This document shows positions 53,519 through 63,768 of a stretch of DNA of 64,000 nucleotides, piece after piece. The stretch's first letter is position 1, and every line of letters starts with the position of its first letter. The translations under genes and the position numbers were made by a program. The stretch covers positions 62,001 to 126,000 of the forward strand of contig JAQTLN010000004.1 in NCBI GenBank assembly GCA_028714875.1, in the 5' to 3' direction. The notes under the pieces are model-generated. The model had not been told where the DNA came from. It ran no database searches and was given only the letters and a program-made list of their open reading frames with translations. This DNA comes from Gallionellaceae bacterium (GTDB lineage: Bacteria; Pseudomonadota; Gammaproteobacteria; Burkholderiales; Thiobacillaceae).

Positions 53519-54937
53519 TCAGAAAATCGCGGTCAGTTGCACGCCGACCTTGTCACCCACGCCATCCAGGTTGTAGTTCGGGGTGGCCGCGCCCGCCGAG
53601 GTGCAAGGCGCCCGGCCGGAGTCGCACTTGAAGTCGCGCATCTCGTAGTTGACGGTCAGCCGGGTCTTGGGATTGAAGTGGTACTGCACCCCCAGCGTCC
53701 ATTTGTCGAAGGTGTGCTGGTTCGCGCGATCCGTATTGCGGGTCATGGTGTCGAAGCGGGCATCCAGCTCCCACTTGGTGTTGGGGATGTACCAACCGCC
53801 TTCCACATACCAGCCATGGGCCTTGGCATCGGCGCCGTTGCCGTCGACCACGCGGGTGAAGTAGTAGTTGGGCTTGTCCGGGCCCTCGAAGATCATGCCA
53901 TCGGCCGTGATGTACTCGGCGGTGACCCGGAACGGCTTGTCCATGTATTTCACTCCCAGGCCGGCGCGATCCCGCTTGTACGTTTTCAGGTTGGCGGTGA
54001 GGTCATCCGTGATGTCGAGCAGGCGCTCACCCCACTGGCCCCAGGCAAAGAACTTCAGGCCTTCCGCCTTGGCGCCTTTGCCGCCGAGTTTCTTCTCGCC
54101 AGACACATAGAGGTACTTGTCGAATTTGCCGTCGCTATTCTTGAACTCGACGCCACTGCCGTTGCCGATCATCGCGGCATAGGACACTTCCCAGTCCTTG
54201 CCCACGTCGAAGGCGTCGAACACCTGGATACCCACATCGCGGAAGGCGCCGACCGGCGTTGAGAATGCATCCAGGCCGCTGTAGCCGCTGGTGCCGGTGA
54301 CATTGCCTTGCAGTTGGGCTTGCGTCATGGCGGCCACGTTGCCTGTATTCGTAATGTTTGAAACGCCGGTCGAATTGGTGAACGATCGGTTCGGGAAGCG
54401 CTCGTTGAGCAGCGCGTTGCTCGCTTCGGTGAAATTGATGTAGTCGAACACATGGATGGCCTGGAGGCCTTCCTCGGCGCCGGGAGTTTTGAACAGGCCG
54501 GCGCGAATGCGCGCGCCGGGAATGGTGTTCAGGGTAATGCTGGCGTCGGTCATCTTGGCGAAGGTGTTGGTGCCTTTGGTGATGCCGTTGTTGCCCATCT
54601 CCAGCAACGCAAAATAGTTGATTCTGCCGTCGAGCGGAAAGCCGGTGCCGCGCGCGCCGATCCGCGCCCGGTTGATGTTGAAGCCGGCTTGCGAGTCCAG
54701 ATCCGGACCCAGCAGTTTGGGCGGAACGTAGGCGCCTGCGGCATTGGCGTCGCTGAAGTCCTTCGCGTACTGGGCCTGGATAAAGCCCCAGACTTCCGCG
54801 CGGGCCGAAGCACCTTCCGGTTCGGTCCCTTGCAACATCAGCCAGTTGGCGGCCATCGCCGAACCGGCGGTGCCCATCAGGGCAAAGGCGCAGGCGGCGC
54901 CGAGAACAGTACGTTTGAACAGTTGCTTGCCTTGCAT
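53519..54937 (-). CDS. Outer-membrane porin
   Basis: The 472-residue protein has a signal peptide (about 1-30, ...GSAMA-ANW), many alternating beta-strands and a C-terminal strand ending in Phe (KVGVQLTAIF), the outer-membrane barrel signature. It resembles OprO/OprP-type or related porins (FNINRARIGARGTGF, EGLKFFAWGQWGERL). AAGGAGG lies eight bases before the second of two close ATG codons, so the start at 54937 is preferred. It may be co-transcribed with the DsrE gene upstream. Confidence 0.88.
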   Translation of the reverse strand: MQGKQLFKRTVLGAACAFALMGTAGSAMAANWLMLQGTEPEGASARAEVWGFIQAQYAKDFSDANAAGAYVPPKLLGPDLDSQAGFNINRARIGARGTGFPLDGRINYFALLEMGNNGITKGTNTFAKMTDASITLNTIPGARIRAGLFKTPGAEEGLQAIHVFDYINFTEASNALLNERFPNRSFTNSTGVSNITNTGNVAAMTQAQLQGNVTGTSGYSGLDAFSTPVGAFRDVGIQVFDAFDVGKDWEVSYAAMIGNGSGVEFKNSDGKFDKYLYVSGEKKLGGKGAKAEGLKFFAWGQWGERLLDITDDLTANLKTYKRDRAGLGVKYMDKPFRVTAEYITADGMIFEGPDKPNYYFTRVVDGNGADAKAHGWYVEGGWYIPNTKWELDARFDTMTRNTDRANQHTFDKWTLGVQYHFNPKTRLTVNYEMRDFKCDSGRAPCTSAGAATPNYNLDGVGDKVGVQLTAIF

Positions 54938-55021
54938 TTCCATTCCTCCTTGAGCGGAATCCAACAGGATCAATTCAGGGTCGATCGCCCTGAAAATCGT
55001 TAAAGCCGTGTGCTGTGTTGA

Positions 55022-55468
55022 TCAGGGTTTGACGTAGATGTAGCCGCGCTTGACCAGCTCGCCGATGCGCACGATGCCGCCGGGCACGACCTTGGCGACG
55101 GGGTTCAGCTTGGGTTCTTCACCGAGCTGCTTGGTCATGCCCTTCAGGGTGTTGCCGCAGGCGGTGAAGCGCACCCCGCTCTGGGACAGGGCGTCCAGGC
55201 GTTGGGCATTGACGTTGTTGGCGAACATCAGGCGCAGGCCGGGGCCATAGGCCACGATCTCGACCTCCACCGCGCCCGGCGGATACGCCTCCAGGAGGTT
55301 CGCGGCGTTGTTCAGGATCAGTTCCTGCTTGGAAGGGTCCATGTCGCTGATGTGCAGGACGTACTTGTAGTCCGCCATGCTTAGATCAGCCGCGAGAACG
55401 GCGGCGGGGCTGGTGATGAACAGCAGGGAGGCGAAGGCCAGGGCCAGGGTGCGAAGCGAGCGAAACAT
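55022..55468 (-). CDS. Secreted DsrE-family protein
   Basis: The 148-residue protein has a signal peptide to about residue 27, then a DsrE/DsrF-like fold (YKYVLHISDMDPSKQELILNNAANLLEAYP, VEVEIVAYGPGLRLM, GVRFTACGNTLKGM with C104, GIVRIGELVKRGYIYVKP). The single Cys is at the position used for sulfur binding in DsrE-like proteins. It is between the porin and the second dsrE gene; the C-terminal YVKP end is shared with that protein and with the anti-sigma factor at 56867. Confidence 0.85.
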   Translation of the reverse strand: MFRSLRTLALAFASLLFITSPAAVLAADLSMADYKYVLHISDMDPSKQELILNNAANLLEAYPPGAVEVEIVAYGPGLRLMFANNVNAQRLDALSQSGVRFTACGNTLKGMTKQLGEEPKLNPVAKVVPGGIVRIGELVKRGYIYVKP

Positions 55469-55620
55469 CGGGAATCTCCAGCGGGTTGTAAATCGTGAAA
55501 TTGCGTTGTTTCCCGGTGCTCAGGGCGTGCGGCGGGCAAGCCGATGCCCTGACGGCTATCGTCAAAAAAATGAACATCGGGGGAGGCGGGCGACGAGGGG
55601 AAGGACTTCCCTATCGTCTT

Positions 55621-55652
55621 GATCAACCTCCGGTCAGGGCCGGAGGTTGATC
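55621..55652 (-). other. Perfect 13-bp hairpin after the second dsrE gene
   Basis: GATCAACCTCCGG and CCGGAGGTTGATC are perfect inverse arms around the six-base loop TCAGGG. No U-run follows on either strand, so it is more likely an mRNA 3'-end stabiliser or Rho-linked stop than an intrinsic terminator. It lies 34 bases past the stop of the 55686 gene. Confidence 0.7.
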
Positions 55653-55685
55653 GGAGGCGGAACTGTCTGAGGCTTGTGAGCTAGC

Positions 55686-56165
55686 TCAGGGTTTCAGGTA
55701 GACGTAGCCTTCTCTGGCCTGGAGCTTGCCGATTTCGGCGACGCCGGAGGGCACCACCTGGGCTTCCAGGATGACCGCGCTGTCGTCCAGCTTGCGGCCC
55801 TTGAGCGTGTTGCGGCAGACGTCGAAAGTAACGCCGCGGTTCTTTAGGCCCGCCACCTGGGGTTCATACAAGCCCTTGTCGTCCTTGGCCTCGTTGAGCA
55901 GGAAGTCGATGCCCTTGCCGTGGGTAACCACCACGATCTGCACGCCGGGACTGGCATCCAGATGGTTTTCGATATTGCGCAGGGCGACACGGGCGACGCT
56001 GGCATCGTTGATGTGGTAGACCACTTTTTCCTGGACTGGGGCTTCTTCCACGACCGGCATGGCCGGCATCTTGTGTGAGGCGGCGGTGGCCGGGACGCAG
56101 AATCCGGCGCTTGCGGCGGCCAGGGCGAGGCTGAATAACGTGGCGCGTATCGATGAGTGCTGCAT
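55686..56165 (-). CDS. Secreted DsrE-family protein, divergent from the ECF sigma gene
   Basis: The 159-residue protein has a signal peptide to about residue 29, a short linker and a DsrE-like domain (EKVVYHINDASVARVALRNIENHLDASPGVQIVVVTHGKGIDFLL, GVTFDVCRNTLKG with C117, GVAEIGKLQAREGYVYLKP). It is divergent from the sigma factor and preceded by a promoter with the same sequence elements, so it is the likely main target of that sigma. Function in periplasmic sulfur handling is inference. Confidence 0.83.
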   Translation of the reverse strand: MQHSSIRATLFSLALAAASAGFCVPATAASHKMPAMPVVEEAPVQEKVVYHINDASVARVALRNIENHLDASPGVQIVVVTHGKGIDFLLNEAKDDKGLYEPQVAGLKNRGVTFDVCRNTLKGRKLDDSAVILEAQVVPSGVAEIGKLQAREGYVYLKP

Positions 56166-56217
56166 GGTCTTCTCCAGAGTGGGTTATGTGCGGGGTGTTG
56201 CCAAACACCTTGCGAAT

Positions 56218-56245
56218 AAGACGGGGCGATTTGCCAACTTATTCC
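56218..56245 (-). promoter_or_regulatory. ECF-type promoter for the dsrE gene
   Basis: On the minus strand GGAATAA, a 15-base spacer and CGTCTT. It lies about 52 bases before the dsrE start at 56165. The same -35, spacer length and -10 occur on the plus strand at 56269-56296. Confidence 0.7.
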
Positions 56246-56268
56246 ACGATTTCTTTTTTTCTTTGCAT

Positions 56269-56296
56269 GGAATAAACCGGGCGCCGGCCCCGTCTT
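56269..56296 (+). promoter_or_regulatory. ECF-type promoter for the sigma/anti-sigma operon
   Basis: GGAATAA, a 15-base spacer and CGTCTT, identical in elements and spacing to the divergent promoter at 56218-56245. It lies 28 bases before the sigma start, implying autoregulation. Confidence 0.7.
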
Positions 56297-56324
56297 CATA
56301 TCAAAGGCTCAACCGGAGTAGCCC

Positions 56325-56870
56325 TTGTTGCCATTCGTGTTCGATTTCGCCGCACGCCGCCGCCTGGAAGGCATGCGGCCACGCCTGTACCGGCTGGCCT
56401 ATGCCTGGTGTCACGACGCGCACCTGGCCGACGACCTGGCGCAGGACGCGCTGGCCAAGGCGCTCACCCGCATGGCGCAGTTGCGCGAGGCTCAGGCCAT
56501 GGAAGGCTGGCTGTTTTCCATACTCAATAACTGTTGGCGCGATCATCTGCGTGGGAGCCGCGAGTTCGAGGACATCGCCGAGATGGACGAGCTGATTTTC
56601 TCCAGCGAGCCCGGCCCCGAGCAGTTGCTGTCCCGGCGCCAGACGCGCGATCGGGTGCGTCGCGCCATCGCCTGCCTGCCGCTGGGGCAGCGCCAGGTGC
56701 TGTCGCTGGTGGACATCGAGGAATGCGCCTATGCGCAGGTGGCCGGCATTCTGGATATTCCGGTGGGCACGGTGATGAGCCGCCTCTCTCGAGCGCGTCT
56801 GGCATTGCGGGCAATACTGGAGAACGAGGACAAACGCGTCACAAAGACGCAACTCAGGAGGGTGAAATGA
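56325..56870 (+). CDS. ECF-type RNA polymerase sigma factor
   Basis: The 181-residue protein has sigma region 2 (RLYRLAYAWCHDAHLADDLAQDALAKALTRM, then WLFSILNNCWRDHLR) and region 4 (LPLGQRQVLSLVDIEECAYAQVAGILDIPVGTVMSRLSRARLALR), with no regions 1 or 3, as in extracytoplasmic-function sigma factors. It starts at TTG (56325 or the next codon) with CGGAG upstream. Its stop overlaps the anti-sigma start as ATGA. Confidence 0.9.
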   Translation: MLPFVFDFAARRRLEGMRPRLYRLAYAWCHDAHLADDLAQDALAKALTRMAQLREAQAMEGWLFSILNNCWRDHLRGSREFEDIAEMDELIFSSEPGPEQLLSRRQTRDRVRRAIACLPLGQRQVLSLVDIEECAYAQVAGILDIPVGTVMSRLSRARLALRAILENEDKRVTKTQLRRVK

Positions 56871-57598
56871 ACGAAGTTAAAAACGAACCGGTTTCGCGCG
56901 AGTTCATCAACGCTTATCTGGATGGCGAACTGACCCTTGAGGAGCGCGAACACCTGCTGGATCGAATGGCGGGCGATGACAGCCTGCGCGCCGAAGTCTG
57001 TGCCCAGCGCACGCTCAAGGAGCAGGTGCGCGCCGCCTATGACGACCTGCCCCACCCCAACGCCGGCGTCCGGCACCGCTACGTCAACACGGCCTGGCGC
57101 CAGGCGCTGGCGGCGGGGGTCTTGCTGGTTCTGGGCTTGAGCGGCGGCTGGCTGGCCCACGATCGCGTCGATCAGCCGCCGGTGGTCGATCGGCTGGCGG
57201 GGCTGCCCGCCGGTTATCAGCCGGTGACCCTGAGTGGTCGGGTGGATACGCAACGCGTGGTCCTGCATCTCGACAGCAGCGACCCGGATCACCTTTCCGC
57301 CTCACTGGATGTGGCGGAGCGCCTTGCGCAATCACGCGGCCAGGGGCAAGTGGAGCTGGTGGTCAACAGCATGGGCCTGGACCTGCTGCGCCAGGATCGC
57401 AGCCCCGAGCGGGCGCGCATCGAGCGCCTGGCGGCAAGTTATCCCAACCTCGTTTTCGTGGCCTGTGGCCAGACCGTCGCGCGCCTGCTGCGTGAAGGGC
57501 AGCATGTGGTGCTGCTGCCGGAGGCGCGCATGGCCTCGTCCGCCATCAACGAGATCATGTCGCGCATGCGTCAGGGTTGGGTGTACGTGAAGATGTAA
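56867..57598 (+). CDS. Membrane anti-sigma factor with C-terminal DsrE-like periplasmic domain
   Basis: The 243-residue protein has an N-terminal anti-sigma segment (about 1-60: SREFINAYLDGELTLEEREHLLDRMAGDDSLRAEV), a single membrane helix (about 79-97) and a periplasmic domain (about 120-243) with the DsrE pattern: VVLHLDSSDPDHLSASLDVAERL, VELVVNSMGLDLL, LVFVACGQTVARLL with C200, and INEIMSRMRQGWVYVKM. These elements line up with the two secreted DsrE proteins nearby. I know of no described anti-sigma factor with this sensor. It would hold the sigma factor at the membrane until the DsrE-like domain meets a sulfur or redox signal, which is inference. Confidence 0.82.
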   Translation: MNEVKNEPVSREFINAYLDGELTLEEREHLLDRMAGDDSLRAEVCAQRTLKEQVRAAYDDLPHPNAGVRHRYVNTAWRQALAAGVLLVLGLSGGWLAHDRVDQPPVVDRLAGLPAGYQPVTLSGRVDTQRVVLHLDSSDPDHLSASLDVAERLAQSRGQGQVELVVNSMGLDLLRQDRSPERARIERLAASYPNLVFVACGQTVARLLREGQHVVLLPEARMASSAINEIMSRMRQGWVYVKM

Positions 57599-62717: not shown

Positions 62718-63389
62718 ATGAGCCACACCGGTAGGCAAGTCAAAGACGTGCTCTATGCCCAGGTCGCCCGCATCGGCAAAGCCGTGTGCAGCCCCAAGCG
62801 CCTGGAGCTGATCGAGTTGTTGTGCCAGGGTGAGAAGCCGGTGGAGCGGCTGGCGGCGGAAGCGGAAATCTCGCTCAAGCTGGCTTCCGCACATTTGAAG
62901 GAGTTGCGCCTTGCGCATCTGGTGCAAGCGCGCAAGGAAGGCAAGAACGTCTATTACCGGCTGACCAGCGAGGCAGTGGCGGATTTCTGGGTGGCGATTC
63001 GTTCGCTGGCGGAAGACCGCTTGCTGGAACTGCGCGCGGCACTGGCCAAGCTGGCCGAACACGTTCATGAACTGACGCCCTTGAGCCGGGAGGAGTTGCT
63101 GGCCCAGGCCAAAAGCGGTGAGGTGATGGTGCTTGATGTGCGCCCAGCGGCCGAGTTCCAGGCCGGCCACCTGCCCTATGCGCAATCCATGCCATTGGAG
63201 GAATTGCGCAAACGGCTCGCCGACCTACCTCACGACAAGCCGGTGGTGGCCTATTGCCGGGGGCCGTTCTGCCTGATGGCGGCGGAAGCGGTGGCGTTGC
63301 TGCGGAAGGAAGGCTTCAGCGCCATTCGCTTGGAAGATGGCGTGGCCGAGTGGCGGGCCTATGGGTTACCGGTTGAGGTTGCCGATTGA
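62718..63389 (+). CDS. ArsR-family regulator fused to a rhodanese domain
   Basis: The 223-residue protein has an N-terminal winged helix (GKAVCSPKRLELIELLCQGEKPVERLAAEAEISLKLASAHLKELRLAHLVQARKEGKNVYYRL) and a C-terminal rhodanese domain with active-site loop CRGPFC in VVAYCRGPFCLMAAE. C24 and C36 in the DNA-binding half are candidates for persulfide sensing as in BigR/SqrR-type ArsR proteins. The downstream DsrE and metallo-beta-lactamase genes fit a reactive-sulfur response operon. Confidence 0.9.
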   Translation: MSHTGRQVKDVLYAQVARIGKAVCSPKRLELIELLCQGEKPVERLAAEAEISLKLASAHLKELRLAHLVQARKEGKNVYYRLTSEAVADFWVAIRSLAEDRLLELRAALAKLAEHVHELTPLSREELLAQAKSGEVMVLDVRPAAEFQAGHLPYAQSMPLEELRKRLADLPHDKPVVAYCRGPFCLMAAEAVALLRKEGFSAIRLEDGVAEWRAYGLPVEVAD

Positions 63390-63414
63390 AAACGTCGTTT
63401 CTTGGGAGAAATTC

Positions 63415-63768
63415 ATGAAAGCCCTGTTCATTCTCAATGGCGCGCCCTATGGCGAGGAGCGCACCTATAACGGTCTGCGCCTGGCCGGCGCGCTGGCGCG
63501 CAAGCCGGAAAACGAGGTGCGCGTGTTTTTGCTGGGCGATGCCGCGATTGCCGCCAAGAACGGCCAGCAGGTGCCGACCGGCTTCTACAACTTGCAGATC
63601 ATGATCAACAAGATTGTGCGTGCCGGCCCAGGAAGGTTGAGCGTGTGTGGCACCTGCATGGACGCGCGTGGCATGGCCGAGGCGGAACTGTTGCCGGGCA
63701 CCCATCGCGGCACCCTGGAAGAACTGGCCGACTGGACCGAGTGGGCCGAAAAGATTCTGGTTTTTTGA
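63415..63768 (+). CDS. Cytosolic DsrE-family protein
   Basis: The 117-residue protein has the DsrE fold (MKALFILNGAPYGEERTYNGLRLAGALARKPENEVRVFLLGDAAIAA) and a Cys pair CGTCMDARG near residue 80. It has no signal peptide, unlike the two DsrE proteins at 55-56 kb. Such proteins carry sulfur or persulfide. Between the ArsR-rhodanese regulator and the MBL-fold enzyme. Confidence 0.85.
   Translation: MKALFILNGAPYGEERTYNGLRLAGALARKPENEVRVFLLGDAAIAAKNGQQVPTGFYNLQIMINKIVRAGPGRLSVCGTCMDARGMAEAELLPGTHRGTLEELADWTEWAEKILVF

Follow-up and report, generated by a model that had tools for sequence, protein, structure and literature searches.

Among described regulators, the closest to the system reported here are the extracytoplasmic function (ECF) sigma factors of group ECF26. 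Passages of the literature give their promoter consensus as GGAAT at -35 and CGTC at -10 (PMC6527743), with the -35 element elsewhere written as GGAATA/GT (PMC6180224), and this GGAAT/CGTC consensus is common to the Sinorhizobium meliloti pairs RpoE1-EcfR1, RpoE4-EcfR4 and RpoE6-EcfR6 and to SigE of Starkeya novella. According to the same passages, RpoE1 and RpoE4 answer sulfite-generating compounds (PMC3511301), and the mechanism by which the sigma factor is released in the sulfite response is called unknown (PMC6527743). We analyzed a 64,000-nucleotide stretch of a Gallionellaceae bacterium (contig JAQTLN010000004.1, positions 62,001 to 126,000; hereafter the window), which encodes a system of similar layout: a sigma gene followed by the gene of a one-helix anti-sigma factor with a homologous N-terminal domain, an order that the ECF26 pairs share along with targets in sulfur oxidation and, in several cases, autoregulation (PMC3511301, PMC6527743, PMC6180224, in part). 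The described ECF26 targets are sulfite oxidases (sorT/sorAB for SigE of St. novella), whereas the predicted targets here are soxYZ/soxB or genes for secreted DsrE proteins; and while the periplasmic domain of EcfR1, EcfR3, EcfR4 and EcfR6 is described as somewhat similar to that of RsiW (a passage of PMC6180224), the one found here is a predicted DsrE domain. Because DsrE takes the place of the RsiW-like domain, we call the system ECF26-like only. We consider it fairly probable that this ECF sigma/membrane anti-sigma pair uses its periplasmic DsrE domain as the receptor and is triggered by sulfur.

Other known systems resemble this one in single respects. The ECF sigma-2 of Arcobacter butzleri (AB1044) activates the sox operon, as seen from transcriptome and mutants, and is thus a comparable case of ECF control of sox, but it also activates nap and other genes, and the passages of PMC3445524 at hand mention no DsrE domain. 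Members of the DsrE/DsrF family (MTH1491, YchN, DsrEFH, TusBCD) have the same fold and an aligned conserved cysteine, but these named structures are separate proteins, whereas here an anti-sigma factor carries the domain at its periplasmic end. ZAS anti-sigma factors of the RsiW type carry a zinc motif; the window protein lacks it, and its putative receptor is DsrE. The preliminary description of this locus, made from the sequence alone, knew of no anti-sigma factor of such build, and we found none with a DsrE domain described among the papers listed by our searches of a single open library, which is not proof of absence in print. Of the listed papers, those in which DsrE and anti-sigma factor both occur use the two for unrelated things; passages of PMC10880074, PMC8999054, PMC12563154 and PMC10512742 also belong to the prior art considered.

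Sequence comparison and structure prediction indicate that the anti-sigma protein (P0005) has three parts: an anti-sigma domain, a single helix through the membrane, and a DsrE domain in which one cysteine is invariant. Its identity as a membrane anti-sigma factor follows from the N-terminal domain, the single helix and the adjoining ECF sigma gene, and inhibition of that sigma factor is predicted. The DsrE-like nature of the periplasmic part, which the preliminary description had proposed by eye, held up: in a predicted model with a mean predicted local distance difference test (pLDDT) score of 87, residues 128-243 adopt a DsrE fold, and the same part matched both secreted DsrE proteins encoded next to it (residues 130-242 against DsrE1, 28% identity, E = 3e-10; residues 129-242 against DsrE2, 26%, E = 5e-6; both single-pair E values). 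In the profile comparison that it had suggested, A1, a profile built from 35 anti-sigma factors, matched the DsrE-family structure MTH1491 with E = 9.5e-20, and it gave weak matches to the N-terminal parts of MucA (E = 0.01) and RseA (E = 0.028). The zf-HC2 match of P0005 in Pfam is below threshold, and the ZAS zinc motif HxxxCxxC is absent from it and present in the type-2 relatives treated below. The motifs listed earlier as shared were confirmed in part: "DP" and "FxACGxT" occur in the anti-sigma factor and in DsrE1, while DsrE2 lacks the DP at that place and reads FDVCRNT.

The comparisons that follow draw on 106 loci, which contained 104 full-length anti-sigma factors; 88 of these were distinct (<95% identity), comprising 84 with the architecture of the window protein (type 1) and 4 of a second build (type 2). 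Cys200, the one conserved cysteine anticipated in the preliminary description, was kept in 84/84 type-1 and 4/4 type-2 proteins in the alignment. It was the sole cysteine of the aligned periplasmic part in all 84 type-1 rows, and an internal disulfide there is unlikely because no second cysteine occurs in any of them. Cys200 aligns with a cysteine of DsrE1 and of DsrE2, and C..T was present in 41/44 secreted DsrE domains of a set chosen for tree building. The conserved cysteine is the place at which DsrE-family proteins carry sulfur. A cytosolic cysteine, Cys45 of P0005 (window 56999-57001), was kept in 76/84 type-1 proteins.

Predicted promoters link the sigma factor to its own operon, to secreted dsrE genes and, across relatives, to sox genes. 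The strict motif GGAATAA-N14-18-CGTCTT had two matches in the 4.08-Mb genome from which the window comes, both within the stretch between sigma and dsrE2 and facing both ways; the same pattern read backwards, as a control, had 0 matches in these 4.08 Mb, and a looser pattern had six matches versus one in the control, none of the six lying on a contig that carries sox genes of this genome. The type-1 promoter motif is the published ECF26 consensus. Among relatives, GGAAT-N15-18-CGTC preceded the sigma gene in 77/84 type-1 loci, against a background of 0.008 sites per 390-bp strand, and in four (L069, L099, L091, L084) of the seven loci lacking it (the others being L038, L112 and L141) the sigma reading frame lies at a contig edge. 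A divergent site was present in 49/84 loci. The gene facing it was first labelled DsrE in 39 cases, SoxY in 6, porin in 1 and none in 3; on follow-up, the porin-labelled case (L083) turned out to be DsrE, two divergent operons (L115, L118) opened with soxC and a cytochrome gene, followed by soxYZ, another (L050) with a Sulf_transp gene, followed by soxYZAXB, and two of the SoxY cases (L063, L065) had a distant DsrE-like gene ahead of soxY. Sulf_transp proteins take up thiosulfate. After this follow-up, all 49 divergent sites faced either a secreted dsrE gene (40) or a sox operon (9), whereas in 33/35 loci without such a site neither kind of gene was recognised over 900 bp, the exceptions being L039 (DsrE) and L112 (porin) (Fisher p = 1.5e-17, on uncorrected counts, with 2/35 for the loci without a site). 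The neighbouring dsrE genes, held in the preliminary description to be controlled by the sigma factor, are thus its predicted target by the shared divergent promoters. The sox operon as a predicted target in many relatives was absent from that description and is the main addition made here. In the window genome itself, soxX-soxA-soxB lie near a contig end (L151, C3:363-3670), and there are two separate soxY genes (L189, C6:172200-172499; L190, C3:35845-36135).

Gene neighbourhoods point in the same direction. The sigma gene stood directly upstream of the anti-sigma gene in 84/84 distinct type-1 loci; within the stretch examined, a secreted DsrE was encoded in 54/84, a porin homologue in 36/84, at least two sox genes in 26/84, downstream sox genes in the same orientation in 17/84, and secreted DsrE or sox in 67/84. 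Sox genes were named by comparing one representative each with Pfam or NCBIfam, where SoxY, SoxA, SoxB, SoxX and SoxC (two proteins) were above the cut-off; SoxZ is presumed from its gene place. At the threshold used, 13 of the 26 loci with two or more sox genes had no secreted DsrE recognised in the examined stretch, and blast clustering revealed more distant DsrE-like genes in some of them (e.g., L051, L059). SoxY was found in 42/42 genomes of the order that have a DsrE anti-sigma factor (37 type 1, 5 type 2) versus 148/258 others (Fisher p = 1e-9, uncorrected for kinship), and in 0/14 control genomes. L116 and L119 are two sigma/DsrE-anti-sigma pairs that lie in tandem within a single locus, flanked by genes for a porin and a secreted DsrE to one side and by a further gene for a secreted DsrE to the other.

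The architecture is also widespread enough that we do not regard it as a product of chance: a genome survey, likewise suggested in the preliminary description, found it in at least 37/300 genomes of the order (33 with E <= 1.7e-30, the remaining 4 with weaker scores, all 37 inspected). Some match occurred in 64/300, the other 27 being inspected only in part, and the counts are lower bounds because the best 7-9 candidates per genome were scored. A phylum-wide sample of 398 genomes gave 3 full-length matches among those listed, all in the same order, and a class-wide sample of 369 genomes, scanned with the type-2 profile only, added 3 type-1 members outside it (G756, G814, G963). Scanning named genomes with two peptide patterns, by way of A2, an 11-sequence subset of A1, yielded 65 loci, 63 of them full-length, some being the same contigs as loci from the genome samples; Sulfuricella, Sulfurimicrobium, Gallionella, Sideroxydans and Parasulfuritortus are among the titles, as are Acidiferrobacter, Ectothiorhodospiraceae, Cupriavidus sp. 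BIS7 and Pandoraea terrae. A single-query scan of the named genomes with P0005 found nothing. Strong A1 matches outside the order (positions 55-240) were considered as further anti-sigma factors and dismissed, as the ten inspected (L153-L162) were secreted DsrE proteins; plasmid matches of P0005 (8 records) and P0006 (9) covered the DsrE half only, and the one inspected, from Azospirillum, was a lone DsrE protein.

A second architecture (type 2), in which a zinc finger (zf-HC2) is joined to a DsrE domain, was found in five loci (L072-L075 and L186) and as full-length matches in 5/300 genomes of the order. The four type-2 proteins scanned all passed both the zf-HC2 and the DsrE cut-off, their DsrE domain is like the window's DsrE2 (that of L074 is 55% identical over 119 residues), and the five accompanying sigma factors form a separate branch in the sigma tree. 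A divergent secreted DsrE gene was present in 5/5 type-2 loci and sox genes in two of the five, namely SoxB nearby in L075 and a divergent group dsrE-soxY-soxZ-soxA/X in L186. The type-1 promoter motif was absent from the four type-2 loci checked (L072-L075); the intergenic stretches of these four hold a pair of GGGAATAA facing both ways, as judged by reading and not by statistics. In a tree of 85 chosen rows, the anti-sigma DsrE domains fell into three groups, requiring three changes. In a follow-up with 83 rows, a constrained tree that joined types 1 and 1b outscored the free tree by 8.1 log units (p = 0.655), which leaves a separate origin of 1b unsupported, and one that joined types 1 and 2 fell 11.6 log units short of the free tree (p = 0.315). 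Neither test rejects a common origin; for the type-2 DsrE domain a separate one is favoured, as a possibility only. It is a tentative idea, favoured by the tree but one that we would not bet on, that ECF anti-sigma factors acquired DsrE repeatedly as a receptor of sulfane sulfur, with its cysteine loaded by the same periplasmic flow as Sox and secreted DsrE proteins; what such a regulator measures would be sulfur on protein instead of a free ligand, and DsrE and Sox proteins, once induced, would unload it in negative feedback.

In the sulfur-triggered mechanism that we prefer, the cytosolic domain would hold the sigma factor at the membrane when no signal is present. Thiosulfate oxidation or another sulfur input would load sulfur onto Cys200, as a persulfide, as a thiosulfonate or by exchange with a DsrE or Sox protein that carries sulfur; once loaded, the DsrE domain would change shape or open to proteolysis, and the freed sigma factor would raise expression of its own operon and of sulfur-handling genes. 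Thiosulfate, sulfane sulfur and sulfite are the candidate signals, the first two being indicated because the sox operon is a predicted target in many relatives. That the same architecture senses sulfite, as its ECF26 counterparts in S. meliloti and St. novella do, with Cys200 reacting with sulfite or holding a persulfide that sulfite can strip, seems doubtful to us, although the following speak for it: the promoter matches the ECF26 consensus (in passages of PMC6527743 and PMC6180224), for which RpoE1 and RpoE4 set the precedent of a sulfite response (PMC3511301) with a release mechanism called unknown (PMC6527743); the window-type anti-sigma factor and the one beside S. meliloti RpoE6 have homologous N-terminal domains; and two divergent operons start with soxC, a sulfite dehydrogenase by NCBIfam. 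Of five ECF genes on S. meliloti plasmids, the presumed RpoE6, picked by its gene place and a divergent protease-like open reading frame (a passage of PMC6180224), matched our sigma profile best (1.5e-44, the next at 2.2e-31; a type-2 sigma factor gave 3.7e-38), and an attempt to assign the sigma factor to ECF26 by a tree failed, with long branches and no resolution. The receptor, however, differs, since the anti-sigma factor beside RpoE6 has no DsrE match and its profile match stops at the membrane helix, and it is soxYZAXB and dsrE that are linked to the present system (no search was made for sorT/sorA).

We judge it unlikely that the DsrE domain serves for docking alone, free of sulfur chemistry, with a soluble DsrE or Sox partner that would free the sigma factor by leaving or arriving. 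DsrE-family proteins form oligomers, and the sensor is homologous to the proteins it is predicted to control, both of which would suit docking; yet a strictly invariant single cysteine exceeds what docking needs, and half of the 26 sox-linked loci have no recognised secreted DsrE. Because these loci keep the DsrE sensor, release of sigma by competition with soluble DsrE, as put forward in the preliminary description, does not hold as a general rule, while such competition is possible in some systems. More improbable is a sensor of redox, metal or oxyanion stress, in which Cys200 would be oxidised or metallated and the porin and DsrE would be parts of a detoxification route: the single cysteine could be reactive in this sense and the porin has a weak match, 19.9 bits against a cut-off of 150, to ExtI from operons for selenite/tellurite reduction, but the predicted targets include sox operons, SoxY accompanies every DsrE anti-sigma factor in the order genomes, and no metal-resistance gene was seen by eye among 20 representatives of neighbour clusters, most of them not compared with a family library.

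Several results weigh against a sulfur-triggered DsrE receptor with these targets. With E <= 1 as the limit, none of the DsrE models in Pfam recognised P0005, and the type-1 proteins of L040 and L047 likewise went unmatched, those of L068, L070 and L071 being above the DsrE cut-off of 22.7 bits. One locus (L039) has a divergent dsrE gene without a divergent site, and another (L112) has a porin and neither promoter site. Neither secreted dsrE nor sox genes were found in the stretch examined in 17/84 type-1 loci, which include short contigs (L084, L091). The sox genes of the window genome (C3, C6) had no strict or looser motif match, so that the link to sox holds there by kinship only and control of sox by the window sigma factor in its own genome is unsupported by the motif search; the predicted regulon in the window organism comprises only the sigma/anti-sigma and dsrE genes and perhaps the porin, with sox included in many relatives. 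Nine of the 17 loci (L123, L125-L127, L131, L133, L137, L138, L140; two of them Acidiferrobacter), in which no adjacent dsrE or sox was recognised, share a near-identical promoter before the sigma gene, GGAATAAATAACGATAGGGCAYCGTCCC or a close variant.

The gene order and coordinates within the window were borne out, with the porin and both DsrE genes on one strand and the sigma and anti-sigma genes divergent from them. The sigma reading frame has TTG as its first codon, its start is approximate, and its 3' end overlaps the anti-sigma start; dsrE1 lies 217 bp downstream of dsrE2, and their co-transcription is putative. About 5 kb from the anti-sigma gene, a second sulfur locus (window 62718-63768, + strand) encodes a regulator of the ArsR type that includes a rhodanese domain (62718-63389) and, directly after it, a further DsrE protein. 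The latter lies within 63337-63768, scores 75 bits with Pfam DsrE and shows no signal peptide by eye. A defence role for the sigma/anti-sigma locus was dismissed, as PADLOC gave no match for the three proteins checked.

Table 1. Features of the sigma/anti-sigma locus, in window coordinates.
Feature	Position	Strand	Basis or remark
Porin_O_P outer-membrane porin (P0004)	53519..54943	-	PF07396, 47.7 bits
Secreted DsrE protein 1 (DsrE1, P0001)	55022..55468	-	Pfam DsrE, 26.3 bits; signal-peptide-like N terminus by eye
Secreted DsrE protein 2 (DsrE2, P0002)	55686..56165	-	Pfam DsrE, 42.7 bits; signal-peptide-like N terminus by eye
Predicted ECF promoter of dsrE2, same motif as for sigma	56218..56245	-	strict motif match
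Predicted ECF promoter of sigma/anti-sigma operon, GGAATAA-N15-CGTCTT	56269..56296	+	strict motif match
ECF sigma factor (P0003)	about 56325..56870	+	Sigma70_r2, Sigma70_r4_2 and TIGR02937 sigma70-ECF above cut-off
Anti-sigma factor with predicted periplasmic DsrE domain (P0005, 243 aa)	56867..57598	+	
Predicted cytosolic anti-sigma domain, residues 1-74	56867..57088	+	without HxxxCxxC zinc motif
Predicted single membrane helix, about residues 76-100	57092..57166	+	helix 73-100 in model; hydrophobic run in sequence
Putative periplasmic DsrE sensor domain, residues 128-243	57248..57595	+	predicted model
Codon of Cys200	57464..57466	+	invariant in type-1 and type-2 anti-sigma factors

ECF systems that answer sulfite or thiosulfate are known, and how the anti-sigma factor frees its sigma factor in them is, in a passage of PMC6527743, stated to be unknown. 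A sensor with the fold of a sulfur carrier and one invariant cysteine offers a concrete residue to probe in this respect. For organisms that oxidise sulfur and iron, such as Sulfuricella, Gallionella and Sideroxydans, the predicted system would connect the regulation of thiosulfate oxidation with periplasmic DsrE proteins, and it suggests how some sulfur-oxidising bacteria may detect sulfur compounds.

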